From Malaciobacter mytili LMG 24559 (GTDB taxonomy: Bacteria; Campylobacterota; Campylobacteria; Campylobacterales; Arcobacteraceae): a DNA stretch of 64,000 nucleotides. Numbering within the stretch: position 1 is the stretch's first letter; every line of letters starts with the position of its first letter. The stretch lies in contig NZ_CP031219.1 in NCBI RefSeq assembly GCF_003346775.1, positions 434,001 through 498,000 on the forward strand. Direction: 5' to 3'. Under the pieces are notes generated by a model. That model searched no databases and was not told where the DNA came from. It saw only the letters and a program-made list of their open reading frames with translations. Positions 1-18,442 of this stretch are shown here, piece after piece. Position numbers and translations under genes: made by a program.

Positions 1-1798
1 CTTGTTGTCTCCAATGTTGAGTTCTTCTTTCTGCATTACCATAAGCTCCCCATTTTTCATAAATCATAGCAGTTGGTAAAATAAGGTCAGATACTTTTGC
101 TGAAATACCTGGGTAACCATCAGAAGTTACAATAAAGTTATCCATTTCTCTTGCTGCTTTAATCCAGTGACTAGCACTTGCAGTATCTTGATATGGATTA
201 CATACATTAACCCATGCAAATTTAACAACACCATCTTCAATATCTCTATGGATTTTCATAATATGTTGATTTCCAACAGGGTTAATTGTTCCTAATGGAA
301 CATTCCATGCTTTTTCAGTGATTTCTCTATGTTTTGCATTTGCTACCATCATATCTGCTGGTAATCTATGTGTAAATGTACCAACTTCTCTTGCAGTTCC
401 ACAAGCACTTGGCTGACCAGTTAAAGAAAATGCTCCTGAACCTGGAATTGCTTGTTTATTTAATAAAAAGTGAACATTATATGCAAGTGTATTTACCCAA
501 GTACCTCTTGTATGTTGGTTCATACCCATTGTCCAGAAAGATACAACTTTTCTTCCTTTTTCAATATATAAATCAGCTAATTCTTTAATTTTTTTCTTAA
601 ATACTGCATCTGATTCATCAGGGTTACCTTTAGATACTTTTGTTACATAATCAGCATTATAAGGCTCTAAGAATTTTTTATACTCTTCAAAAGAGATTTC
701 CCAGTGTTTTAATCCAGCTGGGTTATTAACCATAACATCACCAGCTTTATAACCATATGGTGCAAGTGCTGGAGCTTCATCTTCAGAAACTACTTTTTTC
801 ATCTCTTTTTCAATGATTTCCATCTCTTTAGCTGTATATTTACCTTCAGTAATGGCTTTTTCACCAGCTCTTCTCATACCATAACCCATATTTACTGGGC
901 TTGCTGCAAAGATAATATGTTTTTTAATAAAATCCCAGTCAATTGATTCAGGGTTGTTATATACAATTTCTCTTGCAATATAGTTCCATAAAGCTAAGTC
1001 TGAATTTGGTTTGAAGATAATTTCAATGTCTGCTATATCAGAAGTTCTGTGTCTATAAGTAGAAAGGTTAATTATCTTTACTCTTTCTGGATCTGATAAT
1101 TTTCTATCAGTTACCCTTGACCATAAAATTGGGTGCATTTCTGCCATATTTGAACCCCAAGATACTACAGTATCAGTTAGTTCAATATCATCATAACATC
1201 CAGATGGCTCATCAATACCAAAAGTTTGATAGAAACCAACAACAGCAGATGCCATACAATGTCTTGCATTTGGGTCAATTGCGTTACTTCTAAATCCAGC
1301 TTTCATCATTTTTTGAGCTGCATAACCTTCCATAACTGTATATTGTCCAGAAGCAAATACTCCAACACCTTCAGGTCCAGAAGCTTTTAATGCTTTTCTA
1401 ATATGAAATTCCATTTCATCAAATGCTCTTTCCCATGAAACAGGAGCAAATTTACCATTTTTGTCAAATTCACCTTTTTCATTTACTCTTAATAAAGGTT
1501 GCTTTAATCTATCTGCACCATACATTATTTTAGCGTTAAAATAACCTTTAATACAGTTAAGACCTCTATTTACTGGTGCTGCTGGGTCACCTTTTACTGC
1601 TACAATTTTTCCATTTTTAGTAGCTAACATAATCCCACAACCAGTACCACAGAAACGACAAGCTGCTTTGTCCCATCTCCAGTCACCCTCAGTTTTACTT
1701 GCTGCTGCTTGTAAAGGCGCAGGTACATTCATACCAATCGCTGCGGCTGCAGAAGCTGCGGCTGAACTTTTAAGAAAATCTCTTCTTGAAAGCGACAT
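1..1798 (-). CDS. napA: Periplasmic nitrate reductase catalytic subunit NapA (5' part, runs off the left edge)
   Basis: Reduces nitrate to nitrite in the periplasm using bis-MGD molybdenum and one [4Fe-4S] cluster. My translation gives 599 codons in one intact frame from the ATG at 1798. It opens with a Tat signal ([15 protein letters not shown]) and then a CX2CX3C cluster motif (CRFCGTGCG), with the fourth Cys in GLNCIKG. The Mo-ligand Cys is in ARHCMASAV. Epsilonproteobacterial NapA is about 920 residues, so roughly a third is missing beyond the window edge. Downstream nap genes would lie off the window. The start has an SD-like GGAGATAAA just upstream, and a Crp/Fnr-type promoter precedes the gene. 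Confidence 0.97.
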
Positions 1799-1828: not shown

Positions 1829-1870
1829 ATTGTAACACTTATTTTTCTTATAATTATTGACCTTAGTCAA
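1829..1870 (-). promoter_or_regulatory. Class II Crp/Fnr-type promoter of napA
   Basis: A perfect palindrome TTGACCTTAGTCAA lies at 1857-1870 (TTGAC-N4-GTCAA). On the minus strand a TACAAT hexamer occupies 1834-1829. If the transcript starts at 1822, the -10 falls at -12 to -7 and the palindrome centre exactly at -41.5, the class II activator position known for FNR/DNR-type proteins. The start point is inferred, not measured. The half-site carries C/G where classical FNR boxes carry T/A. Confidence 0.8.
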
Positions 1871-4757: not shown

Positions 4758-5399
4758 ATGAAAGCTAAATTAAAAGAGATTTTTCTATTTAAAGATTTAG
4801 ATGACAATACCTTAGATAAAATTGCGAAAATAACTTCTATACTAAGATTATCAAAAGATAATATTTTATTTTATGAAGGAGAAGAATCAAAGTTTTTGTA
4901 TCTTCTTACAAAAGGTATTATAAAAGTGTATAAAACCTCTTCCAATGATAAAGAGATAATCTTAAAATATTTTCATGCCAATGAGTTTATTGCAGAAGTT
5001 GCAAATTTTGAAAATATTGCTTATCCAGCTACTGCTCAATGTTTTATTGATTCAGAAGTTTTAAAAATAGATTTTTTTAAATTAAAAGAGATTATTTATT
5101 CAGATCCAAAACTTGCTTTTGTAATACAAACTTCTTTAATAAAAAAAATAAGAAATTTAGAAAAATTAGTCTCTTTACATATTGTTTTAGACTCAAAAGA
5201 AAGAATAGCAAAATATATTTATGAGCAGCCAGAGCAGTTTTTTAATACTAAAAATATAATTATTGCAGAGATTTTAAATATCTCTCCTGAAACCTTGTCT
5301 AGAATGTTAAAGGGCTTTAAAGATGAAGGTATAATTGATATAAAAAATAAAACAATAAATAAAGAAAAATTAGAAGATATTTTTAGACTACAAAAATAA
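4758..5399 (+). CDS. Crp/Fnr family transcription regulator (DNR-like), copy 1
   Basis: 213 residues with an N-terminal cyclic-nucleotide-type beta barrel (about 5-115), a long dimer helix (about 120-145) and a C-terminal winged helix whose recognition helix reads SPETLSRMLKGF. The E..SR pattern is that of FNR/DNR proteins that read TTGA half-sites. No N-terminal cysteine cluster is present; there is a single Cys near 96. An FNR-type [4Fe-4S] oxygen sensor is therefore unlikely and a DNR/NnrR-type NO or nitrogen-oxide sensor is more plausible. It is clearly paralogous to the regulator at 17816 (same length class, shared FYEGE/D.SK.L.LL.KGI.K motifs). It converges on the haem d1 operon. Confidence 0.92.
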   Translation: MKAKLKEIFLFKDLDDNTLDKIAKITSILRLSKDNILFYEGEESKFLYLLTKGIIKVYKTSSNDKEIILKYFHANEFIAEVANFENIAYPATAQCFIDSEVLKIDFFKLKEIIYSDPKLAFVIQTSLIKKIRNLEKLVSLHIVLDSKERIAKYIYEQPEQFFNTKNIIIAEILNISPETLSRMLKGFKDEGIIDIKNKTINKEKLEDIFRLQK

Positions 5400-6137: not shown

Positions 6138-7231
6138 TATTCACTCCTTTTATAAATAAATATTCCAGAAGGTTTTTTAATATCTAAAATCTCTTTTTGA
6201 ACTATCCATTTTTTAGTATTAATTACTGCAACTTTATTTGAATCATTTATAGACACATATAATTTAGGTTTTTCTTCTGACCATCTTAAATGTAAAACTT
6301 TTCCATCAAATGTAAAACTTTTTATAATTTTTAAAGTTTTTGTATCAATTATTTCAATTATTGGAAAATCTTTTCCTGAATAAGTAACAGCAAGAAAATC
6401 TTTTTTAGGGCTTAAACTTGTAAATACAGGTAATCCTTTTGTTTGTATATTTTTAATAAATTTAAAATTATTATCATATACCAATACTTTTTTATCTCCT
6501 ACAGCTGGTACAAATACTTTGTCTCCACCAATAGACCAAAATCCAAAATGTGGAACTTTTAAAACCATTTGTCTATTTTCATCTAAGAAAATCTTTACTT
6601 TTTGAAATTCCATTTTCTTTAAATCAACTACTCCAAAATGCTTAGAAGTAAAAAAACCAACAATATATTTTTCATCTTTTATCATGGCATCAAAAGGAAG
6701 TTCTCCAACTTCTTTAAATTCTTTATAAAGTTTAAAATTAGGCTCTTTTTCTCCTAGATTTAAATCTTTATATATGGAAATAGTATCTTTATTCATTTGT
6801 GAAAAAATTAGATAATTGTTATAAATTTTTATACCTACGTTTTTAGAATCAGTAAAGATTTTTTTAATAGGTTTTAAATCTCTTGTTAAAATATCTACGC
6901 TTTTATCATCATAATTTGCAACTGCCACATAATACTTTGCTACAACAAAACCAATTGCAGATTTTGAAGTTTTATAAGTAGCTGTTATTTTTTCTAAAAT
7001 AGGATCAAATTTAATTATATATCCATCTCTTGAAATAACATAGCCATCTTTATCTTTAAACTTTACAACACCATGATTCATATTTTTCATATTTTTTATT
7101 GTGTTCTTTTTAGAGTCTTTAGAAATAACTGCAAGTGACGAGTCTTCTCTTTCAACTATAAAAATCTTCTCTTTTGCTTGTAAAGAATTTAATATTATAA
7201 ATACAAATAAATATATTTTAAAAAGCTTCAT
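6137..7231 (-). CDS. nirF: Haem d1 biosynthesis protein NirF
   Basis: NirF is a periplasmic beta-propeller related to the d1 domain of NirS and acts late in haem d1 synthesis. I chose the start at 7231: it has AGGAG seven bases upstream and gives a signal peptide (KLFKIYLFVFIILNSLQA) on a 364-residue protein. An in-frame ATG at 7252 would overlap nirJ. The body shows repeated propeller-like blades (for example YYVAVANYDDKSVDILTRD, and KLYVSINDSNKVAVINTKKW near the C terminus). Some NirF proteins are lipoproteins; here no lipobox Cys is seen. It lies between nirJ and nirE. Confidence 0.88.
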   Translation of the reverse strand: MKLFKIYLFVFIILNSLQAKEKIFIVEREDSSLAVISKDSKKNTIKNMKNMNHGVVKFKDKDGYVISRDGYIIKFDPILEKITATYKTSKSAIGFVVAKYYVAVANYDDKSVDILTRDLKPIKKIFTDSKNVGIKIYNNYLIFSQMNKDTISIYKDLNLGEKEPNFKLYKEFKEVGELPFDAMIKDEKYIVGFFTSKHFGVVDLKKMEFQKVKIFLDENRQMVLKVPHFGFWSIGGDKVFVPAVGDKKVLVYDNNFKFIKNIQTKGLPVFTSLSPKKDFLAVTYSGKDFPIIEIIDTKTLKIIKSFTFDGKVLHLRWSEEKPKLYVSINDSNKVAVINTKKWIVQKEILDIKKPSGIFIYKRSE

Positions 7232-7232
7232 T

Positions 7233-8354
7233 TTAACTCCTAATCTCTTCATTTGTTAAATAACAAGAAGGATCTTCTTGCCATAAATCACCACTTAAAG
7301 CATAAGCTCTTGCCCTTGAGCCTCCATTGCAAATATTGATATATTTGCATATTTTGCATTTTCCTTTTATTTTTCTTGGAAAATTTCTTAATTTATTTAA
7401 AATCTCATTTTTTGAATTATTCCAAATTTCATTAAAAGACATTTGTAGATAATTACCAATAGCAAAAGGGAAAAAAGGATCTGGTTTTACAACTCCTTGC
7501 CAATTTATATTTCCTAATCTGCTTCCACAAGAGTTACCTTTCCAGTTTAATAATCTCTTTTCTAAATTTAAAGCTTTATGGGGATAATCTTTTTTAAATC
7601 TATTTAAAAGAATTATGGCATCCATCTCCATATTACCTGTAACAATATCTATATCTTTTTTTTCTTTGTAATATTCAAAAGCTTTATCTATAATATATTC
7701 AACATATTCTCTTCTTTTTTCTTTTGAAATATCAATATCTAAATTCTCTTTTCCTCGTCCTGAATATACTAGATGAGAGATATAAAATTTTTTTACATTT
7801 AACTTTTCTACTAACTCAAACATCTTATAAAAACTATCTTGAGTCTCTTTTGTAAGAGTAAATCTAATACCTACATTTCCACCATGTTCTTGTATTAGTT
7901 TAATAGAGTCAATAGCTTTTTTATAGGCACCTTTGTGTCCTCTGAAATTATCATGTATATCCTCAATTCCATCAATAGAAATACCTATATAATTAAAAGT
8001 ATTTATGATTTTTTCTACATTTTTCTTATTTATATAAAATCCATTTGTTGATAAATAAGTAAAAATTTTTTGTTCTTTCATATAAGAGGCTATTTCAAAA
8101 ATATCTTTTCTTAAAAGAGGTTCTCCCCCTGAAAAGATTACAAAGTTTATATTTGATTGTTTTAGTTCTTTTGTGGTTTTTTTTATTTGTTCTAAAGTAA
8201 GAGTATCTTTTTCATAAATATCTGCTTTACTATAACAGTGATGACAAAGTAAATTACAGCGATTTGTAAAATTCCAAATTATTATTGAGCCATTTAACAT
8301 TTTAGAGTGAGTCTCTTCAAATGTTGATTTTATTAGATTTGATAGACGTAACAT
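7233..8354 (-). CDS. nirJ: Haem d1 biosynthesis radical SAM protein NirJ
   Basis: NirJ is thought to replace the propionate groups of the d1 precursor with oxo groups. The 373 residues carry the radical SAM motif CNLLCHHC (about 33-40), the GGEPLLR segment (about 76-82) and a SPASM-like C terminus with extra cysteines (SCGSRLG; CKICKYINICNGG; DPSCYL) for auxiliary clusters. It begins one base after the upstream cytochrome gene and runs into nirF without a gap. Confidence 0.93.
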   Translation of the reverse strand: MLRLSNLIKSTFEETHSKMLNGSIIIWNFTNRCNLLCHHCYSKADIYEKDTLTLEQIKKTTKELKQSNINFVIFSGGEPLLRKDIFEIASYMKEQKIFTYLSTNGFYINKKNVEKIINTFNYIGISIDGIEDIHDNFRGHKGAYKKAIDSIKLIQEHGGNVGIRFTLTKETQDSFYKMFELVEKLNVKKFYISHLVYSGRGKENLDIDISKEKRREYVEYIIDKAFEYYKEKKDIDIVTGNMEMDAIILLNRFKKDYPHKALNLEKRLLNWKGNSCGSRLGNINWQGVVKPDPFFPFAIGNYLQMSFNEIWNNSKNEILNKLRNFPRKIKGKCKICKYINICNGGSRARAYALSGDLWQEDPSCYLTNEEIRS

Positions 8355-8355
8355 T

Positions 8356-8667
8356 TTAGTTTTCTTTTTTAAATGAGATTATAAAATTTGTAATTTCATC
8401 TAATTGTTTAATAGTTAGTTTATCTTTAAAACTTGGCATAACTGATCTTTTATAGCCTAGTTGTATATAAGTAGACCTAGGTGCAATTATATGACCTTGA
8501 ATTTCTCCATAAGTTCTTTTACTTGCAATTTCTTCAAAAGAAGGACCAAAAGCAACAGATGTTTGATGATGGCAACCCCAACAATACTCTTTAAATACCT
8601 TATCATTTGAAAAAACCGATGTGTAAAGAGACATTAGTACAAGTGGTATTTTAAATACAAGCCACAT
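8356..8667 (-). CDS. Small periplasmic c-type cytochrome heading the haem d1 operon (NirC-like)
   Basis: 103 residues with a signal peptide (about 1-20) and one haem c site, CWGCH at 29-33. A likely axial Met is in RSVMPSFKDKLT. The size and position match NirC, a monohaem cytochrome proposed to mature or reduce NirS, but sequence alone does not separate NirC from other small cytochromes. It is the first gene of the operon cytochrome-nirJ-nirF-nirE, directly behind the FNR-type promoter at 8726. Confidence 0.85.
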   Translation of the reverse strand: MWLVFKIPLVLMSLYTSVFSNDKVFKEYCWGCHHQTSVAFGPSFEEIASKRTYGEIQGHIIAPRSTYIQLGYKRSVMPSFKDKLTIKQLDEITNFIISFKKEN

Positions 8668-8697: not shown

Positions 8698-8739
8698 ATC
8701 TTATCATAATAGAACAATCTTGTACTTGATGTTTATCAA
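8698..8739 (-). promoter_or_regulatory. FNR-consensus box and -10 of the haem d1 operon; box shared with a divergent small gene
   Basis: TTGATGTTTATCAA at 8726-8739 is a perfect FNR/DNR palindrome (TTGAT-N4-ATCAA). On the minus strand TAAGAT at 8703-8698 puts the box at -41.5 from a start at 8691, 24 bases before the cytochrome ATG. On the plus strand a perfect TATAAT lies at 8768-8773, where the box would sit near -47.5 for the 61-residue protein gene. One box may therefore serve both directions. Confidence 0.8.
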
Positions 8740-10619: not shown

Positions 10620-12269
10620 TTAATATGTATCTGTCATTGTATTAGTTACATTAAATTTACCAGTTGGTGTAATTAATCTTTTATCATCAATTACAGATTT
10701 TAGTTCTAAAGTTTTTGAATCATAGATTAAAATTGGGCTAGCTTTTAGCTTATTACCCCAAATTGATGTCCAAACTTCAGATCCATCTGCATTAAACTCA
10801 AAATGTACAGGTCCTCTTGAAGCTACCTCTTTACCATCTTCAGTTTTTGCAGGAGTTAAATATTTTTTAGGAATAGGTATAGTTTTAACCACTTCTAAAC
10901 TCTCTTTATCTATTACATAAATTTGTGTTTGAAGTTTTCTATCTGGATTAACTGGTCTATCTGCAAAAATATATGGTGAGTTTGGATGTCCTTTTATAAA
11001 TAAGTTTCCTCCTCCTTCACCTGGAAGTGAGATTTTTTTCACAACTTTCCATGCATTTTGTGGATAATTTACAGGATCAGTTCCAATAAAAATAATATCA
11101 TTTGAACCAATATGTCCTGAACCCCAAATTGGACCATATTTTTTAGAATTAACATTTACACCTCTACCTGGATGAGGCTTAATTCCTTGTGAAGGTATAT
11201 TAGCAACTAAATTGCCTTTTACTGTATCAATTACAGATATTATATTTCTAGCATTTGCTGCTGTCATAAAATATCTTTTAGATAAGTCCCATCCACCATC
11301 ATGTAAATATCTTTCAGCATCTACCATAGTAATTTTTGGATTTTTAATATCTGAGTAATCATATAGCCAAACTTGACCTGTCTCTTTTATATTAACTACC
11401 CATTCAGGTCTTTCATGTGAAGCAATAATTGCTGCAACTCTAGCTTCTCTTGTAAATTCTTGTGTATCATAAGTATAACTTGCAGTTGAAACAATTTTTA
11501 AAGGTTCAAGAGTATCTGCTTCTAATGTTACAATTGAAGGTGGCCAGTAGCATCCAACAATTGCATATTTATCTTTATAGTCTGGATGTTTAGATGTATC
11601 AATAGCTCTTGCATCATTACAAGTTCTAATTTCAGCTACATTTTTAGGAACTTTCATCCATAAATCAATCATTGAGGCTTTTCCATCTCTTCCTATAACA
11701 TACATATATCTTCCTGAAGCCCCTGTTCTTGTAATATGTGTTGCAAATCCAGATGGTACCACTGAAACTACTTTTTTTGTAACACCATCAATAATAGCAA
11801 TTTCTCCCACATCTCTTAAGATAACTGCAAAGTAATCTTTCCAATTTTCAGCTTCTGGAGCTTTTGGTCTATCTTTTACTGGAATAAGTATCTTATGAGA
11901 CTTCTTCATATCAGCCATAGATTTTTCAGGAGGAAGAGGGGCTTCTATTTGAATATATTTAGCCATTAATTCAGTCTCTTCTTTTGTTAATTCTCCTGTT
12001 TTTCCCCAACCTGGCATTCCTCCAGGTGTTCCAAAATTAATAATGTGTTTTAATGTTTCTGTTCCAAATTCTTTTGATCTTGTAGCTTCTAAACTAGGTC
12101 CCAATGCCCCTTTTCTTAACATTCCATGGCACCCAGCACACCTATCAAAATATACTTGTGTTGCTTTTTGCATCTCTTCTTTTGATAATTTAATCTCTTT
12201 TGCATTAACTAATGATGTTAATCCTAAACAACTAATAGTTAATATACCTAATACTCTTCTTATTTTCAT
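10620..12269 (-). CDS. nirS: Cytochrome cd1 nitrite reductase NirS
   Basis: Reduces nitrite to nitric oxide in the periplasm. The 549 residues include a signal peptide (1-23), a cytochrome c domain with CAGCH at 44-48 and GTPGGMPGWG, and the d1 propeller (from about 140) with the characteristic phrases THITRTGASGRYMYVIGRDG, VASHERPEW-like SHERPEWVVNIKETG and GRGVNVNSKKYGPIWGSGHI. Length is typical. A strong SD (AAGGAG) lies 10 bases before ATG. The gene has no Crp/Fnr box of its own; a hairpin and the nor operon lie upstream, so read-through from nor is possible. Confidence 0.97.
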   Translation of the reverse strand: MKIRRVLGILTISCLGLTSLVNAKEIKLSKEEMQKATQVYFDRCAGCHGMLRKGALGPSLEATRSKEFGTETLKHIINFGTPGGMPGWGKTGELTKEETELMAKYIQIEAPLPPEKSMADMKKSHKILIPVKDRPKAPEAENWKDYFAVILRDVGEIAIIDGVTKKVVSVVPSGFATHITRTGASGRYMYVIGRDGKASMIDLWMKVPKNVAEIRTCNDARAIDTSKHPDYKDKYAIVGCYWPPSIVTLEADTLEPLKIVSTASYTYDTQEFTREARVAAIIASHERPEWVVNIKETGQVWLYDYSDIKNPKITMVDAERYLHDGGWDLSKRYFMTAANARNIISVIDTVKGNLVANIPSQGIKPHPGRGVNVNSKKYGPIWGSGHIGSNDIIFIGTDPVNYPQNAWKVVKKISLPGEGGGNLFIKGHPNSPYIFADRPVNPDRKLQTQIYVIDKESLEVVKTIPIPKKYLTPAKTEDGKEVASRGPVHFEFNADGSEVWTSIWGNKLKASPILIYDSKTLELKSVIDDKRLITPTGKFNVTNTMTDTY

Positions 12270-12301
12270 AATATTTATCTCCTTCCTTTGAAATAAATAA
12301 A

Positions 12302-12321
12302 AAACTAATTATTATTAGTTT
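12302..12321 (-). terminator. Weak intrinsic terminator or attenuator between the nor operon and nirS
   Basis: AAACTAAT / ATTAGTTT with a 4-base loop. On the minus strand it is followed by TTTTTATTTATTT, so it looks like an AT-rich intrinsic terminator located 24 bases after the 50-residue gene and about 33 bases before the nirS ATG. Because no separate promoter for nirS is evident, partial read-through is likely. Confidence 0.5.
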
Positions 12322-12344
12322 AAGCCTTAACTGTAAACCTTATC

Positions 12345-12497
12345 TCAACTCTCTTCCTCTAATCTTTTTTTCTCTGCTTTGTAAATCCAAAACATTGGAA
12401 GTACAATTATTGTATGTAAAAATAGAGTTAAAGTTAATGGACCTTGATTTAATGTAGCAAAAAAACTTGGTACTACATCTACAAATGGATCTATCAT
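12345..12497 (-). CDS. 50-residue single-helix membrane protein between norB and nirS
   Basis: Translation from ATG 12497 gives 50 residues ending at TGA 12347-12345. One hydrophobic segment (LTLTLFLHTIIVLPMFWIY, about 21-39) is followed by a charged tail (KAEKKRLEEES). AAGGAG sits six bases before the ATG, and the gene starts 12 bases after the norB stop. It resembles in size the small extra subunits of haem-copper oxidases such as CcoQ, and a small nitric oxide reductase subunit is a reasonable guess, not a demonstrated fact. A longer ORF in another frame here (12340-12660) is a shadow of norB. Confidence 0.72.
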   Translation of the reverse strand: MIDPFVDVVPSFFATLNQGPLTLTLFLHTIIVLPMFWIYKAEKKRLEEES

Positions 12498-12509
12498 TTT
12501 TTCTCCTTA

Positions 12510-13925
12510 TTAATAAATATGTCTTGGACTTTTTGAAGTTGTTAATAAATCTTTTATTAAGAATATAAATCCAATAAAAGTTACAACACCCATAACAAGT
12601 CTCCAACCTATACCTTGTACAAACCATGGTAAACTTTGTGAAATAAAATAAGCTTGCCAAGTTGCTCCCATTTGAGCTCTTTCAACTAATACTTGTCCAT
12701 AACCTGCAATAGTTAAAGATACAGTCATTCCTAATACTCCAATAGTAATTAATGAAATTGCCATTTTAGAAGCAAATGTTGCTTTTAAAACTTTGATACC
12801 ATTTTTACCTTGTAATCCTAAATAAAACATACCTATTAAAATTGTTGCGTATGCTCCAAAAAAGGCTAAGTGTCCGTGAGCAGAAGTAAACTGCGTACCG
12901 TGCGTATAGATATTTATTTGTGGTAAAGTGTGGAAAAATCCCCAAACACCTGCACCTAAAAAGTTACCAAAAGCATTTGTAACAAACCAAGCAAAAGCAG
13001 GAGTATTGTTCATAGTTTTTTCTTCTGTTCCTTCTTTTAACCCAGTCTCTTTTCCCCAATCATAAATTACATGCACAAACATTGCAACTAAAGGTACTGG
13101 CTCAAGTGCAGAAAACAGTGCTCCAATTTCCCACCAATATTCAGGTGTTCCAATCCAAAAATAGTGATGTCCTAATCCTAAAATACCAGAACCAAAAAGC
13201 ATAGTTACTTCAATCCATAACCACATTTCAACTATTTCTCTTCTAGCACCAATAATTTTAATAAGTCCATATGCTGCTAAACATCCAACAAATACTTCCC
13301 AAGTAGCTTCAACCCATAAGTGAATTACCCACCACCACCAATATTGATCAACTGAAATATTTTCTGTAAAGAACATACCTGCAAGATATAAACCAGCTAA
13401 GGCTAAAACATCTGCCATAAGAACTGTTACAATACCTGTTTGTTTTCCTTTTGCAGCTGTTGCAAAAAGGTTAAAAACAAATACTAAAACCACTACAACA
13501 ATACCTATATCAGCCCATCTTGGTGCTTCAATATATTCTCTACCTTCATTAATAAACCAAATTGTACTTTCAGTTGCAGGCCCTACTTGAACTAAAATAT
13601 ATACTAATACAACAACTGTAACGGCAGCTGTTAATATATAAAAAGCAATATTTCCAAGTTTAATTCCTACTGTTTCAATTTCTGTTTCATCAGGTAGTAA
13701 GTAATATACTGAACCAATCATTGCATAAAGCATCCATACTACTAAAGCATTAATATGAACCATTCTTGCAACATTAAAATCAAATACTTCAAAAAGAAAG
13801 CTTGGAAATAAAAATTGAGTTGCTGCAATAAGTCCCATAAGTAATTGTGCACCAAATAATATAGCTGCAACAGTAAAATACTTAATTGCTAATTTTTTTG
13901 ATTCAAATTGTAAATTATTTGCCAT
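12510..13925 (-). CDS. norB: Nitric oxide reductase cytochrome b subunit NorB
   Basis: Reduces two NO to N2O in the inner membrane, receiving electrons from NorC. With the ATG at 13925, which has AGGAG upstream (an upstream ATG at 13946 has none), the protein is 471 residues with about 12 membrane helices. Haem and non-haem iron ligands are recognisable: RMVHINALVVWM (about 45-56), HLWVEATWEVFVG with His and Glu, MFVHVIYDW, and THGTQFTSAHGHLAFFGAYA near 340-360. The start overlaps the norC stop by 11 bases. No norQ or norD is nearby. Confidence 0.97.
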   Translation of the reverse strand: MANNLQFESKKLAIKYFTVAAILFGAQLLMGLIAATQFLFPSFLFEVFDFNVARMVHINALVVWMLYAMIGSVYYLLPDETEIETVGIKLGNIAFYILTAAVTVVVLVYILVQVGPATESTIWFINEGREYIEAPRWADIGIVVVVLVFVFNLFATAAKGKQTGIVTVLMADVLALAGLYLAGMFFTENISVDQYWWWWVIHLWVEATWEVFVGCLAAYGLIKIIGARREIVEMWLWIEVTMLFGSGILGLGHHYFWIGTPEYWWEIGALFSALEPVPLVAMFVHVIYDWGKETGLKEGTEEKTMNNTPAFAWFVTNAFGNFLGAGVWGFFHTLPQINIYTHGTQFTSAHGHLAFFGAYATILIGMFYLGLQGKNGIKVLKATFASKMAISLITIGVLGMTVSLTIAGYGQVLVERAQMGATWQAYFISQSLPWFVQGIGWRLVMGVVTFIGFIFLIKDLLTTSKSPRHIY

Positions 13926-14580
13926 GAATCGCTCCTGTCTTACCATCTAAAGACATTCTTCCAAAGTTTCTTGGGAATCCATTTGTATCAATAGATGACA
14001 TATGTTTTAAGAAAGCTACAAGTCCCATCGCTTCTTTTTGTGTAATACCAAGATTTGGCATCATTCTTTCATGTGATGGATACATTGAAGGATTTTGTAA
14101 AAATTTTGACATTGCTTCTTCTTTTGTTTTAGAATCTGTCATTAAAATATAATTCTCCCATGCTGGATCTAACCAAGCTTTTGTTAAATCAGGAGCATAA
14201 TATGCACCATTTCCTAATAGGGTATGGCAATTCATACAGTTTTTAGCTTGAGAAGCTAATTTCCCAAGTCTTAAAAGAGATGAAGCTTCTTCTTCAGACC
14301 AATCATCTCTTCCAAAGAATTTTTCTTTTTCACCAATTTTTGGCACCTCATGACCTCTTTTTATATCCATTTCATAAGTAATTTTATAATTAATTACTGT
14401 TGGAGCGGGTACTCTTTTGGTAATACCATTTCTAAGATCTGTATCTGTTCCCATACTAATTTGACTCATAGAGTCAAAAGTAAGCCAAATTAATAATATA
14501 GCGGCAAATCCAGTTACCCAAGCAGCAGATTTTCTCCAAAAAGGGATACTCGTCCATACTGAAACAACTTTTCTAGACAC
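13915..14580 (-). CDS. norC: Nitric oxide reductase cytochrome c subunit NorC
   Basis: Membrane-anchored cytochrome c that feeds electrons to NorB. The 221 residues show an N-terminal helix (SAAWVTGFAAILLIWLTF, about 18-35) and one haem site CMNCH at 115-119 followed by the typical TLLGNGAYYAPDLTKAW. The likely Met ligand is in HERMMPNLGIT. It is longer than the roughly 150-residue proteobacterial NorC because of about 60 extra residues between the membrane helix and the haem domain. It lies second in the operon orf108-norC-norB-orf50. Confidence 0.96.
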   Translation of the reverse strand: MSRKVVSVWTSIPFWRKSAAWVTGFAAILLIWLTFDSMSQISMGTDTDLRNGITKRVPAPTVINYKITYEMDIKRGHEVPKIGEKEKFFGRDDWSEEEASSLLRLGKLASQAKNCMNCHTLLGNGAYYAPDLTKAWLDPAWENYILMTDSKTKEEAMSKFLQNPSMYPSHERMMPNLGITQKEAMGLVAFLKHMSSIDTNGFPRNFGRMSLDGKTGAIHGK

Positions 14581-14597
14581 CTTGTTCCTCCTAAGAT

Positions 14598-14924
14598 TTA
14601 TTGTTCATATCTTTCTTCTGAACGAAGATTTAAGTAATAATACAAGTGGGGAAGAATTAGATAACAAATCATTGTTACCATAAGTACTTTAACTGTAAAA
14701 GAATCACTTTGTATCTTCGTTGCAAAAAAATACATACAATATGTTTGCAAACCCCAAAATATATATGCAAATGGCATATATATTCTTTTTAGTTTGTCCA
14801 TTTTTACTAGCGTATAAATAGCTACAAAAAATAGTCCAAATAACAATACAAATGAAGAAGATAAAAATATTGGTAAAAAATCATCCAATGCAATTTCTGG
14901 TCTTCTTATAAAAACAACATCCAT
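14598..14924 (-). CDS. Unknown 108-residue membrane protein heading the nor operon
   Basis: Three to four hydrophobic segments (about 18-41, 51-68, 77-96) and a short charged tail. The product begins MDVVFIRRPE and has no cysteine cluster or haem motif. It is the first gene after the Crp/Fnr-type promoter and lies 17 bases before norC, so it is very probably co-expressed with norCB. Some denitrifiers carry small membrane proteins NorE/NorF near nor genes; whether this one is related cannot be told by eye. Confidence 0.8.
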   Translation of the reverse strand: MDVVFIRRPEIALDDFLPIFLSSSFVLLFGLFFVAIYTLVKMDKLKRIYMPFAYIFWGLQTYCMYFFATKIQSDSFTVKVLMVTMICYLILPHLYYYLNLRSEERYEQ

Positions 14925-14964: not shown

Positions 14965-15006
14965 ATTCTAGTCTAAAAATAAACTTAAAAAAATGACATA
15001 TGTCAA
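14965..15006 (-). promoter_or_regulatory. Class II Crp/Fnr-type promoter of the nor operon
   Basis: On the minus strand TTGACATATGTCAT occupies 15006-14993 (TTGAC-N4-GTCAT, one base short of a perfect palindrome). TAGAAT at 14970-14965 then lies at -12 to -7 for a start at 14958, which places the box centre at exactly -41.5. It shares the TTGAC/GTCA half-site with the napA promoter rather than the TTGAT/ATCAA of the nir promoter. Confidence 0.8.
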
Positions 15007-15111: not shown

Positions 15112-15144
15112 AAAAAAAGGGCCTTTTATCTAAAGGCCCTTTTT
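15112..15144 (-). terminator. Strong intrinsic terminator after the PilJ-domain sensor gene
   Basis: GGGCCTTT / AAAGGCCC stem extended by flanking A and T runs, with a 5-base loop, six bases past the stop of the gene at 15150. The minus-strand product ends in a run of T, typical of intrinsic termination. Confidence 0.85.
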
Positions 15145-15149
15145 ATGGA

Positions 15150-16127
15150 TTATTTATTTTTACAATTAATTGCAAGGGTATTTAATTCTTTTTTTAATTC
15201 TTGAAGTTTATGTGTAAAGTTTAAAAGATTTTCTTGAGATTCTATAACCATATCTTCACTTTTATAAAGTTGATTTGACAGGTCTTGTGAATCTTTTAAT
15301 TCATCTAAAATTTGATCAAATTCATTAGTTAAATCTTCTAATCTTTTTGAAGCATTATTTGAATAATCCATTGCAGCATTTATTTTATGAATAAAACAAT
15401 TTAGAGTATCAGTTGCTTCAACAATCTCTTTTTCAGCTTCAAAGTTTATTAAATCAATAGGTTCAGTAATATTTTCTTCTTTTAATTTTTTTGATAACTC
15501 AAGGAACTTTTTAGCATTTTCTTCCATTGATTTTAATTGATAAAAACTATAAATTACTAAAAGAATAATCATAAGTGCAAAAATATATTGAAAATACTTT
15601 ATAGAGTCAGTTTTTTTCTCTGCATAAGTTGTATATAAACTTACAATAACATCTACTTCATTTAATAAATTGTTATTTGTTTCATAAATTGTATCTACTA
15701 AGTTTTTTAATATTTTTTGATTTGTTTCATTTCTATTTTCTAGTAATTCTTTAATTTTTAAAATATTTGAATAAAAATTACTCCATAAAATTTCAACTTT
15801 TGAAATTTGATTTGAAATTGAAGTAGTTGGGGCTTTTTCAATACCCAATAAAGAATTTCCATCTTTTAAAGATTTTAAATTATATATAAATTCTTGCGTA
15901 GCATTATCTAATTCTGAAAAGCTATGTTTATTATTATGATATAAGTAAAATACATTTTTGGAAATTCTTTGGGTAAGCATTCTTTGTTTTCCAGCAATAT
16001 TTATAATAAGTGCATCTTTTTCATTTTTTGCATTTAAATAAATAGTTGTTCCTATAATACTAGACATTAAGATTATAAATAATAATCCAATTGTTTTAAT
16101 TTTTGTACTAATTGTTGTTTGTTTCAT
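15150..16127 (-). CDS. PilJ/NarX-type nitrate-sensor-like membrane protein without an output domain
   Basis: 325 residues: membrane helix at about 12-31, a periplasmic helical domain and a second helix at about 180-198, then a cytoplasmic coiled-coil of about 120 residues. Directly after helix 1 is AGKQRMLTQRISK (45-57), the P-box-like motif of the PilJ/type IV pili MCP N-terminal domain found in NarX, NarQ and nitrate chemoreceptors. After helix 2 there is a HAMP-like/coiled-coil region but no methyl-accepting hairpin, kinase or cyclase domain. The gene overlaps the stop of the upstream Crp/Fnr gene by 4 bases, so the two are coupled. A nitrate or nitrite sensing role is inferred from the domain and locus. 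Confidence 0.82.
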   Translation of the reverse strand: MKQTTISTKIKTIGLLFIILMSSIIGTTIYLNAKNEKDALIINIAGKQRMLTQRISKNVFYLYHNNKHSFSELDNATQEFIYNLKSLKDGNSLLGIEKAPTTSISNQISKVEILWSNFYSNILKIKELLENRNETNQKILKNLVDTIYETNNNLLNEVDVIVSLYTTYAEKKTDSIKYFQYIFALMIILLVIYSFYQLKSMEENAKKFLELSKKLKEENITEPIDLINFEAEKEIVEATDTLNCFIHKINAAMDYSNNASKRLEDLTNEFDQILDELKDSQDLSNQLYKSEDMVIESQENLLNFTHKLQELKKELNTLAINCKNK

Positions 16128-16789
16128 ATCCCAATTCCTTTAAAAATTGATACAAGTGCCTCTTTATTTATAACTGAAACTATACTATTTTCAATCTCTA
16201 TTATTTGGTTTCTGCTTAATCTTTTTAGTACTCTTGAAAGTGTTTCTGGCTGAATATGAAGCATAAAAGAAACCTCTTGTCTTTTTAACTTATTAAACAT
16301 ATCTAAATCTTGATTTAGCATAAAAGCAACTTTTGCTGTTGCATCAAATACTAATTCTCTATTTATAATACATTGAAGTTGATGTGTTTTATTTAGTAAA
16401 GCTTCCATTAGTTTAGAAGTAAGTATATTTTTATCTAAAAATTCTTCTTTAAATTTAACAAAATCAATTGATAAGATAATTGAGTCCTCAATAAATTCAG
16501 CATTTGAAAAACAATATATATTGTTTGTATTTATTGATGAAAGCTCTGAAATCATATTGTTTTTATAAATATGATATAAAAATATTTCATTACCAAATTT
16601 ATCAACTTTATAGATTTTTATTAATCCACTAACTAAAAACATAAGTGAATTATTAATATCACTTTCATAATATAAAATAGAGTTTTGTGGATAACTATTT
16701 ATTCTTGAAATTTCTGATAGTTTTTTTACTTGTTCTTGTGATAATTCATTAAAAAAATCTATTGAGCTTATGACTTCTTGTAGTGACAA
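16124..16789 (-). CDS. Crp/Fnr family transcription regulator coupled to the PilJ-domain sensor
   Basis: 221 residues with an N-terminal cNMP-like barrel (about 5-115), dimer helix and winged helix with recognition helix QPETLSRVLKRLSRN. There is no FNR-type N-terminal cysteine set; the two cysteines (YCFSN, LQCIIN) are internal. It is more distant from the two paralogous regulators at 4758 and 17816 than they are from each other. Its stop overlaps the ATG of the PilJ-domain gene. It probably controls part of the denitrification regulon, but which box it reads is unknown. Confidence 0.9.
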   Translation of the reverse strand: MSLQEVISSIDFFNELSQEQVKKLSEISRINSYPQNSILYYESDINNSLMFLVSGLIKIYKVDKFGNEIFLYHIYKNNMISELSSINTNNIYCFSNAEFIEDSIILSIDFVKFKEEFLDKNILTSKLMEALLNKTHQLQCIINRELVFDATAKVAFMLNQDLDMFNKLKRQEVSFMLHIQPETLSRVLKRLSRNQIIEIENSIVSVINKEALVSIFKGIGI

Positions 16790-16888: not shown

Positions 16889-17806
16889 ATGAGTTTTAAA
16901 AGATATATAAAAGCCGTAGGTACGGGGATAAAAGGTAATAGAAATTTAGAAGAATTTGAAGTAATTGATGCAATTACTCAAATCTTAAATAGGCAAGCAA
17001 CTGATGCACAAATTGGTGCTTTTTTAATTGGTTTTAGGGTAAAGCTAGAATCTGATGAAGAATTAAAAGCTTGTGTAAAAGCTTTAAGAAACTTTATAAA
17101 GTTTTCAAATATAGAAAATTCTTTAGAACTTGGTTACTCTTTTGATGGAAAAGTACGAAATCCTTTTTTATTCCCCTTATATAAAGATATTTTAAAAGAA
17201 TTTCATCTAAAAAATAGTGATATTAAACCTTTAAATTTAGTTATTTCAACAGATTTTTTGCAACCTGCTAAAAATGGAATTTGTGCAAATGATTTTGTAA
17301 AAGATTATGATTTAGGTGAAAATATTTATATTTTTAATAGACAAGAATATTTAAAACAATTAAGCGATTTAACTTCTTTACGGCAAGAATTAGCACTTAG
17401 AACAGTATTTAATACAGTTGAGAAACTATTAGGAGTTGCAAAAAGTGAATATGCTGTAACTACTGCTTTTCATCGACCGTATGTAAAAAAGTATATTGAA
17501 GTATTTAAAGACTATTATAAAAATATAGTTGTTGTAAAAGGTGCAGAAGGTAGTCCTGAAGTATTTAGTGATGGAAAATATTGGAAATTAGAAGGTGATG
17601 AAATAAAAGATTATAGTTTTGAACTTAAAGATTTTGGAATTAATTATTCTAAAGAATATAATAATATTTCTTTAAATGAAGCAAAAGCTATAATAAATAG
17701 TCCAGATGAAGAAATAATTAAATTATGTAAATTTAATATTGCATTATATTTAGTATTTGCAAATAGAGTAAACTCTTTAAATGAAGCATGGGAAAGATTA
17801 AATTAG
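16889..17806 (+). CDS. TrpD2/YbiB-like protein (anthranilate phosphoribosyltransferase fold)
   Basis: 305 residues resembling the TrpD family: the N-terminal helical part includes ATDAQIGAFLIGFRVKLESDEEL (quoted in two blocks as ATDAQIGAFLIGF and RVKLESDEEL), and the end has VVKGAEGSPEVFSDGKYWK. The canonical TrpD PRPP loop (GTGGD) is absent, as in TrpD2/YbiB proteins, which are reported to bind nucleic acids and not to make tryptophan. An SD-like AAGGAA precedes ATG. It lies 9 bases before a Crp/Fnr gene, suggesting one operon. Confidence 0.75.
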   Translation: MSFKRYIKAVGTGIKGNRNLEEFEVIDAITQILNRQATDAQIGAFLIGFRVKLESDEELKACVKALRNFIKFSNIENSLELGYSFDGKVRNPFLFPLYKDILKEFHLKNSDIKPLNLVISTDFLQPAKNGICANDFVKDYDLGENIYIFNRQEYLKQLSDLTSLRQELALRTVFNTVEKLLGVAKSEYAVTTAFHRPYVKKYIEVFKDYYKNIVVVKGAEGSPEVFSDGKYWKLEGDEIKDYSFELKDFGINYSKEYNNISLNEAKAIINSPDEEIIKLCKFNIALYLVFANRVNSLNEAWERLN

Positions 17807-17815
17807 AGGTTTGAA

Positions 17816-18442
17816 ATGAATTTAGAAGATATATACTTTTTTAAGAATTTAGATGAAAAAATTTTAGAAAATATAAAAGAGTATTCAACTATTATAAAAT
17901 ATTCAAAAGAGAATATAATTTTTTATGAAGGTGATGATTCTAAATATCTTCACCTTTTAGTTAAAGGAATTGTAAAACTTTATAAAAGTGGAAGTAATAA
18001 TAAAGAAATTGTTATGAAGTATTTTTATGATAATGAACTAATTGCTGAACTTAGTAACTTTGAACAAATCCCTTATCCAGCCACTGCATTGGCTTATACT
18101 GATTGTGAAATTTTAAAAATAGATTTTGAAAAGTTTAGAAAAATTATCTATTCAAATGAAGAGTTAGCTTTAAAAATTCAAGCTTCATTAATAAAAAAAA
18201 TAAAGAATTTAGAAAGAATTATTTCGTCACAATTAGTTTTAGATACCCATCAAAGAGTTGCCAAATATATTGTGGAAAATAAAGATGATTTCTTTAAAAC
18301 AAAGAATATTTTAATAGCTCAATTATTAAATATAACTCCTGAAACACTATCAAGAGTTCTTAGAAATTTTAAAGATAATGGCTATATAAATATAAAAAAT
18401 AAAAGTATAAATACAGAAGAATTAATTTTACTTTATAATTAA
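17816..18442 (+). CDS. Crp/Fnr family transcription regulator (DNR-like), copy 2
   Basis: 208 residues, laid out as the regulator at 4758: barrel with FYEGDDSKYLHLLVKGIVKL (about 39-58), dimer helix, and winged helix with TPETLSRVLRNFKDNG. No N-terminal cysteine cluster. The two proteins are clearly paralogous over their whole length, so one island carries two near-equivalent DNR-like regulators plus a third divergent one. It follows the TrpD2-like gene by 9 bases and precedes moaA, whose product supplies the molybdenum cofactor needed by NapA. Confidence 0.92.
   Translation: MNLEDIYFFKNLDEKILENIKEYSTIIKYSKENIIFYEGDDSKYLHLLVKGIVKLYKSGSNNKEIVMKYFYDNELIAELSNFEQIPYPATALAYTDCEILKIDFEKFRKIIYSNEELALKIQASLIKKIKNLERIISSQLVLDTHQRVAKYIVENKDDFFKTKNILIAQLLNITPETLSRVLRNFKDNGYINIKNKSINTEELILLYN

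Follow-up and report, generated by a model that had tools for sequence, protein, structure and literature searches.

The window analysed here is a 64,000-nucleotide stretch of Malaciobacter mytili LMG 24559 (contig NZ_CP031219.1, positions 434,001 to 498,000); the closest named relative is Malaciobacter halophilus, with 82% identity. Its minus strand contains two overlapping genes, one encoding a Crp/Fnr-family regulator and the other, directly downstream, a membrane protein with a PilJ sensor domain. The co-conservation of this pair suggests an undescribed way for these bacteria to signal the presence of nitrate to their genes. The two genes and the parts of the sensor are located in the window as follows.

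16124–16789, minus strand: gene for the Crp/Fnr-family regulator, 221 residues, TTG start (open reading frame, Pfam)
15150–16127, minus strand: sensor gene for a PilJ, HAMP-like and coiled-coil membrane protein of 325 residues without an output enzyme domain (open reading frame, Pfam, fold match to the NarQ sensor-transmembrane-HAMP fragment and McpN)
16035–16100, minus strand: first transmembrane helix (TM1), about residues 10–31 (hydropathy, helix in the model)
15969–16004, minus strand: N-box INIAGKQRMLTQ, residues 42–53, with the nitrate-contact motif G46-x-x-R49 (sequence against the consensus of PMC6381276)
15534–15602, minus strand: second transmembrane helix (TM2), about residues 176–198 (hydropathy, helix in the model)
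15378–15536, minus strand: HAMP-like segment, about residues 198–250, composed of a helix, a 15-residue connector and a helix (model helices to residue 217 and from residue 233; NarQ alignment through residue 257)
15168–15272, minus strand: conserved C-terminal helix, residues 286–320, a candidate output or docking tail (sequence conservation)
15114–15144, minus strand: terminator-like hairpin 3' of the sensor gene (consensus scan, sequence)

The crp gene overlaps the sensor gene by 4 nt (16124–16127; junction GGGATATGAAACAAAC); an earlier sequence-only reading of this DNA had stated that the two genes overlap. The regulator harbors the Pfam domains cNMP_binding and HTH_Crp_2, both above cut-off. 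The hairpin at 15144–15114 stands between the pair and the nor genes, and the consensus scan found two such terminator-like sites in the stretch, against 0.2 expected. Given this hairpin, the pair looks like a transcription unit of its own. Sigma-70-like promoters around the pair show no excess over chance (14 found against 18.8 expected).

PilJ (PF13675) is the sole Pfam match of the sensor above cut-off (78 bits against a cut-off of 26.6, residues 30–135), and the sensor is the only PF13675 match in its own genome. Kinase, MCPsignal, GGDEF and cyclase domains gave no Pfam match in the sensor at an expectation value (E) of 0.1, and its hydrophobic stretches lie near residues 6–33 and 174–201. 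The sequence-only reading had described a NarX/McpN-type motif, two membrane helices and the absence of kinase, methyl-accepting chemotaxis protein (MCP) and cyclase domains, all of which are borne out by the N-box, the hydropathy and Pfam. Its further statement that only a coiled coil follows TM2 does not hold, since a HAMP-like segment precedes the coil. Because Pfam HAMP gives no match in the sensor at E 0.1, the HAMP-like assignment rests on the fold and on NCBIfam matches far below cut-off, namely NarQ (18.1 bits against 553, residues 1–314, model positions 2–277 of 565) and VicK (17.8 bits against 680, residues 173–265, model positions 6–98 of 448). As judged from its sequence, the sensor is devoid of the DHp and catalytic kinase domains of the NarX/NarQ class.

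The N-box of the sensor agrees exactly with the published consensus of nitrate-binding PilJ domains, [IVL]-[ND]-x-A-G-x-Q-R-M-L-[ST]-Q (PMC6381276). In McpN, the N-box arginine forms two hydrogen bonds with nitrate (PMC6381276), and the sensor probably binds nitrate in the periplasm as well. Its structure was predicted with AlphaFold2 (mean predicted local distance difference test score, pLDDT, 77; predicted template modelling score 0.54). Foldseek ranked NarQ fragments best for this model (5jeq, TM-score 0.80 by target, E 1.5e-4). A second structural aligner placed the McpN ligand-binding domain (6gcv) first, tied with PilJ (Z 17.6, root-mean-square deviation 2.0 Å over 124 residues), and matched the NarQ sensor-transmembrane-HAMP fragment 5jeq along model residues 1–257 (Z 13.8, 2.8 Å, 223 residues). 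Four-helix bundles with no relation to the sensor also reach a Z near 15 with this aligner; therefore, the weight of the fold comparison is put on the long co-linear NarQ alignment together with the N-box. By sequence, a profile of 47 relatives matched solved structures of PilJ at E 9e-12 and of the McpN ligand-binding domain at 2.9e-9, and NarQ only at E 0.22. The HAMP-like part is followed by a helical stretch of about 75 residues with low model confidence.

The pair is conserved far beyond chance. In Arcobacteraceae, the sensor is matched in 87 of 104 genomes and 16 of 20 genera, and 90 of the 98 sensor matches, in 85 of the 87 genomes, have a Crp match (at least 42% identity) upstream on the same strand. 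Gaps of about 500 nt are seen in three of these 90, where the match is the second half of a double-PilJ protein. The eight unpaired matches are either fragments, with crp on another contig or beside another fragment (G088, G089, G098), or weak matches of 23–44% identity (G006, G035, G059, G074, G100). Across the phylum Campylobacterota, the sensor is matched at E 1e-5 in 155 of 397 genomes, weak matches included. Crp adjoins 77 of the 86 phylum matches listed (85 outside Arcobacteraceae plus G102); of the remaining nine, one is truncated where its contig begins (G295), and the other eight turned out to be paired on reading the DNA. Seventeen Crp matches came without a listed sensor, and reading the DNA found 13 of them paired and two without a sensor (G112, G070), with G272 and G440 left out. 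Among loci L097 to L194, Crp lies directly upstream in 94 of 98, the exceptions being contig starts (L150, L166) and partial genes (L181, L187), and further loci chosen as doubtful or distant were paired in 20 of 20 cases. In total, 194 of 199 sensor open reading frames in the fetched loci are paired, giving 131 unique pairs in Campylobacterota after deduplication, as the locus sources share organisms. The exact 4-nt overlap occurs in 72 of the 131, and all gaps fall within −56 to +18 nt. A chance overlap of two unrelated genes was rejected, given the conserved pairing across genomes. A lack of joint conservation of the two genes had been named beforehand as an outcome that would refute the proposed arrangement; with 85 of 87 genomes and 131 unique pairs, this refutation did not occur.

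A wider contig scan yielded 129 relatives, and the 78 loci kept are all titled Campylobacterota or generic 'bacterium'; the pair is seen here in Campylobacterota alone, with 49 of the 129 relatives left out of the check and no genome-by-genome search of other phyla. One of the loci, L164, comes from a metagenome-assembled genome titled Helicobacter pylori PMSS1 (isolate MiH-14oct19-106) and carries an Arcobacter-like pair; the title is probably wrong. The Aliarcobacter loci L131, L137, and L140 carry this Crp, and the Arcobacter discussed in a 2019 review is said there to have no FNR/CRP homologue (PMC6682613). A double-PilJ version of the sensor, of about 440–460 residues, is present at L050:8806–10125, L071:9762–11078, L105–L106, and L109–L116, most of them with the G-x-x-R-M motif on both copies. 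Paired sensors of double-PilJ length without the full motif are found in G216 (L227:2258–3643) and G292 (L258:1713–3089).

The distribution and the neighborhood of the pair connect it with nitrate respiration. Among Arcobacteraceae genomes, 82 have both a nap-type pair and napA, 2 the pair only, 13 napA only, and 7 neither (Fisher p = 1e-4). In many loci, napA is located 25–220 bp downstream of the sensor or divergently upstream of crp; elsewhere, the marker nearest to the pair is nor, cobA or moaA. The co-occurrence with nap/nir/nor, which the sequence-only reading had put forward as a check, is supported by the napA counts and these locus neighbors, and sequence evidence supports a place for the pair in nitrate respiration. 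The promoter regions point the same way. Boxes of the form TTGA-N6-TCAA lie no more than 250 bp upstream of 29 of 34 napA, 5 of 9 nosZ and 13 of 61 paired crp genes, compared with 58 of 881 other open reading frames, in a position test over 62 loci that are related and not independent. Within the same distance, no exact box was found upstream of norC (0 of 8), norB (0 of 8), nirS (0 of 4) or nirN (0 of 4). When one mismatch is permitted and the window is taken by itself, the box count is at chance level (15 found against 17.6 expected), and therefore the box support rests on the position test. The recognition helix of the Crp protein reads PETLSRV and is of the E-x-x-SR type. Such a helix fits a TTGA half-site. 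Three boxes in the window lie at the following positions.

1857–1870, plus strand: TTGACCTTAGTCAA, Dnr/Fnr-type box about 65 bp upstream of napA (exact match)
8726–8739, plus strand: TTGATGTTTATCAA, box upstream of the open reading frame starting at 8667 on the minus strand (exact match)
14993–15006, plus strand: ATGACATATGTCAA, one-mismatch box upstream of the open reading frame 14598–14924 and the nor genes, both on the minus strand (box scan)

A sister form of the pair is found at nosZ. The G-x-x-R-M motif is present in 115 of the 125 full-length unique pairs, and the other ten are of the nos type. Nine of these ten have nosZ directly downstream, and the tenth (L192) is cut by a contig end. 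The nos-type pairs form one clade in the sensor tree and one in the Crp tree, with support 1.0 each. These trees were built without row L059, whose sensor is masked (X) over a stretch and has an altered N-box; with this row included, the nos-type tips formed no clade. L133, which has a broken sensor, is not among the 125 pairs. Outside Arcobacteraceae, nosZ lies 100–154 bp downstream of 20 of 21 motif-less paralogs, all of which read without the nitrate motif, and the 21st is on a different contig from nosZ. Three nos-type sensors tested in Pfam gave no PilJ score at E 0.01. In the nos branch, a differently conserved helix stands in place of G-x-x-R, approximately as N-x-QK-x-FTQEISKNIFYIYKN. 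In the Arcobacteraceae nos loci L043 and L047, only crp and the sensor gene stand between unrelated upstream genes and nosZ. One pair with an N-box (L062, identical to L136 and from the same genome) is also situated upstream of nosZ, at 312 bp. Taken as sequence evidence, these data show that both genes were duplicated together to give the nos-linked pair, and that the target operon changed.

The nos-type pairs directly upstream of nosZ (L043, L047, L098, L100 at 7006–8623, L101, and L103) are candidate sensors of nitrous oxide (N2O) or of another nos-specific signal. A nos-type sensor tail fragment, placed where a contig ends and shortly before nosZ, was also seen in G053 (L219:2864–3151), a genome without a match in the Arcobacteraceae sensor search. 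In addition, a small conserved protein of about 142–157 residues with a signal-peptide-like N-terminus is encoded directly upstream of the nos-type crp in four loci, listed below. It is not found upstream of the nos-type crp in L043 or L047, and that of L100 has no Pfam match. This protein is a possible partner of the nos-type sensor.

L098, 9707–10135, minus strand: small protein
L100, 6560–6997, plus strand: small protein
L101, 9890–10339, minus strand: small protein
L103, 9372–9845, minus strand: small protein

Comparison of the sensor groups draws attention to the C-terminal tail. Between nap-type and nos-type sensors, the mean identity is 0.27 in the periplasmic part, 0.15 in the coil (residues 251–285) and 0.43 in the tail (residues 286–320), and between nap-type and double-PilJ sensors the corresponding values are 0.36, 0.20, and 0.40. 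The tail is the best-kept region compared between groups, save the N-box helix in the double types. A fixed output surface combined with exchangeable inputs would be expected to look like this. A search with the tail alone gave matches in 133 of 397 genomes at E 0.001, and the strong ones coincide with this sensor family wherever coordinates were matched or the DNA was read. Among the matches listed, weak ones (E 5e-7 to 7e-5) fall outside the family, in a 337-residue protein of G080, proteins of 689–815 residues in genus g29 (G211, G441), and proteins of about 530 residues in G110, G300, and G429. No Crp adjoins them at the loci read (L214–L218, L223), and the two g29 proteins were unmatched in the local scan; all were taken as coiled-coil noise.

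The identity of the regulator was approached through genome G263, which very probably belongs to Wolinella succinogenes. A transposase-like gene (11763–12953) interrupts its nosZ (L207:10522–14425), as in W. succinogenes DSM 1740. G263 has three Crp matches at E 0.01, which share 45.2, 28.6, and 25.5% identity with one Crp of G153 and 33.2, 48.8, and 28.2% with the other; two other genomes of the same genus gave similar results. This identity matrix follows, within about 2–3 points, the published table of NssA, NssB, and NssC against the Crps of Nitrosophilus labii (44.8, 29.2, and 26.1%, and 33.3, 50.0, and 28.2%; PMC11539149). Because of this agreement, the G263 Crp that adjoins a double-PilJ sensor, about 0.9 kb from napA, is probably NssA. 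The three genomes compared, G153 and the other two, are presumably Nitrosophilus. The putative NssC gene of G263 lies directly upstream of the split nosZ, with no sensor gene in between. Compared with the G263 proteins, the window Crp shares 44% identity with the putative NssA, 31% with NssB and 23% with NssC. By this closest identity and the nap linkage it is probably of NssA type, and nitrate activation of nap is predicted. One review describes NssA as acting in the nitrate response of W. succinogenes (PMC6682613), and another calls the question of how nitrate is sensed open (PMC8139620).

An FNR-type N-terminal cysteine cluster is absent from the Crp proteins of this family; in 124 of 125 members, the first 35 columns hold at most one Cys. 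The window protein possesses only Cys93 and Cys140. These are kept in 97 and 93, respectively, of 100 single-PilJ nap-type Crps, and in 13 of 15 each of the double-PilJ type, whereas the nos-type Crps have neither (0 of 10) and mostly carry serine instead. The retention of Cys93 and Cys140 leaves room for a second input to the Crp protein. In Escherichia coli CRP, R82 contacts the cyclic phosphate of cAMP; an arginine for this contact at positions 86–97 is found neither in the window Crp nor in 92 of 100 nap-type members. Two further Crp/Fnr paralogs of the window (4758–5399 and 17816–18442, both on the plus strand), with 58% mutual identity, are nearer to the putative NssB (37–38%) than to NssA.

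We think it rather probable that the kinase-less transmembrane sensor signals periplasmic nitrate to this NssA-type Crp/Fnr activator, and that it does so by direct contact. The four-helix PilJ domain would bind nitrate in the periplasm, at a site in the dimer interface (G46/R49) like that of McpN, NarX, and NarQ, and TM2 and the HAMP-like segment would relay the signal to the C-terminal helix. That helix would stand in for a kinase and act on the co-translated Crp/Fnr protein, most likely by binding it directly, either freeing it from the membrane or pushing it into its DNA-binding form. The activator would then use TTGAY-N4-RTCAA boxes to switch on nap and genes related to it.

Several observations weigh against this reading. 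Mean-field direct coupling analysis of 125 aligned pairs placed none of the tail–Crp couplings among the top 50, against 6 expected. It also returned no sensible contacts within either protein, and the few columns of its top inter-protein pairs are the same ones that dominate the intra-protein list. From residue 261 on, where the proposed output helix lies, the block means of pLDDT are 45–52. Moreover, 13 of 95 napA genomes of Arcobacteraceae have no recorded pair, and other Crp/Fnr paralogs of the same genome can also bind such boxes. In G089 (L181), a truncated sensor has no adjoining crp, which is on another contig. G112 and G070 keep a related Crp without an adjoining sensor, directly upstream of napA in the former and divergent from napA in the latter, and therefore the regulator may work without the sensor. 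Finally, the distant paired sensors of G216 (ERERM) and G292 deviate from the full nitrate motif.

The alternatives differ in where the signal enters and how it is passed on. The sensor could report nitrate to the Crp protein through a third partner, such as a separate kinase, an unlinked adaptor or a small molecule, in keeping with the silence of the coupling analysis on direct contact. No third neighbor is constant among the markers tested, however, as nap, nor, cobA, moaA, and nosZ vary; the Crp protein has no Pfam match to a receiver domain, and in L043 and L047 no gene besides crp and the sensor gene separates the unrelated upstream genes from nosZ. We hold this route to be rather unlikely. 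It is also unlikely that the Crp protein itself senses, for example nitric oxide or redox state via Cys93 and Cys140, with the membrane protein merely tuning or limiting it. The conservation of both cysteines in most nap-type and double-type Crps speaks for such sensing, as do the Crps without a sensor in G112 and G070 and the fact that DNR of Pseudomonas aeruginosa is the nearest solved structure by sequence profile. Against it, nearly all carriers read have retained the sensor, G-x-x-R-M stands in 115 of the 125 full-length unique pairs (with G216 and G292 as exceptions among more distant loci), and the nitrate response is assigned to NssA in a review (PMC6682613).

PilJ domains also serve chemoreceptors such as McpN (PMC6381276), and both MCPsignal and CheW are present in 27 of the 30 carriers tested; the membrane protein could be a chemoreceptor-like subunit of chemotaxis arrays whose adjacency to crp ensures only co-expression. 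The sensor has no MCPsignal domain, however, and the pair carriers G270, G286, and G427 are without MCPsignal and CheW matches; mixed complexes with chemoreceptors only, named beforehand as an outcome that would speak against the pair, are excluded for these three of the 30 genomes. Chemotaxis is thereby excluded as the core role of the sensor, which makes this explanation very improbable as a whole, and a side role may exist in the 27 other carriers. That the protein is a decayed sensor kinase without remaining function would account for the missing kinase half of NarQ, but is scarcely credible in view of the sequence conservation among 47 aligned relatives selected for full length, the conserved tail and the sensor matches in 16 of 20 Arcobacteraceae genera.

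The remaining genes around the pair complete the setting. A second gene of the cytochrome d1 type is located near the pair, besides nirS, norB, and norC, and the open reading frame starting at 8667 on the minus strand encodes a small protein with a CxxCH motif, followed by more putative nir accessory genes.

1–1792, minus strand: napA, 5' part in the window (whole gene, G000 C1:432985–435792)
10620–14924, minus strand: nirS, norB, norC and a small open reading frame, neighbors of the pair (open reading frames, Pfam)
16889–17806, plus strand: Glycosyltransferase family 3 / TrpD2-like gene, divergent from the pair and in the same position in many Arcobacteraceae loci

Among the Campylobacterota are bacteria that live in sediments, vents, and guts and respire nitrate and N2O. 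In Wolinella, NssA is cytoplasmic whereas the Nap nitrate reductase is periplasmic, and a kinase-free transmembrane sensor is a candidate for the missing step between them. Direct contact, if true, would let a signal travel from the membrane to the genes without phosphorylation or a second messenger. The nos-linked pair is a candidate for the control of N2O reductase, which bears on greenhouse gas release; if its branch does sense N2O, it may offer the mechanism of N2O sensing that is still missing. As a tentative proposal, possible rather than likely, the pairs would constitute a new class of transmembrane signalling, seen here only in Campylobacterota, in which kinase-free receptors (periplasmic sensor, transmembrane helices, HAMP, docking helix) are wired to a dedicated Crp/Fnr activator. 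This class would be modular, with a nap branch sensing nitrate and a nos branch sensing N2O or another nos-specific signal. No description of a kinase-less PilJ sensor paired with Crp/Fnr was found in the available parts of the literature searched, the original description of NssA being outside that search.

Both components come from known families, and transmembrane control of a transcription factor is already known as a principle. The sensor resembles NarQ and NarX of E. coli in its order of TM1, PilJ-type four-helix sensor with G-x-x-R, TM2 and HAMP, the fold being aligned over residues 1–257; unlike them, it has no kinase part, and its partner is a Crp/Fnr protein instead of a NarL-type response regulator. 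With McpN of P. aeruginosa it shares the PilJ ligand domain and the N-box, McpN being the top structural match, tied with PilJ. It differs from McpN in having no MCP signalling domain and in occurring also in three genomes where neither MCPsignal nor CheW was matched. In Mlc–PtsG, anti-sigma factors and other cases of membrane sequestration, a transcription factor is likewise controlled by binding at the membrane; these proteins are unrelated to the pair and are not known to include a HAMP-type sensor. NssA of W. succinogenes is the closest counterpart of the regulator, and its putative gene likewise adjoins a double-PilJ sensor gene, whereas no sensor partner of NssA is mentioned in the available parts of the literature searched, to which its original description did not belong. 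In the CyaC-Clr-CycR system of Sinorhizobium meliloti, a membrane signal protein contacts a Crp-like regulator, as would be the case here; CyaC is an adenylate cyclase acting via cAMP, whereas the sensor has no cyclase match and the window Crp has no cAMP-phosphate arginine (PMC10463352).

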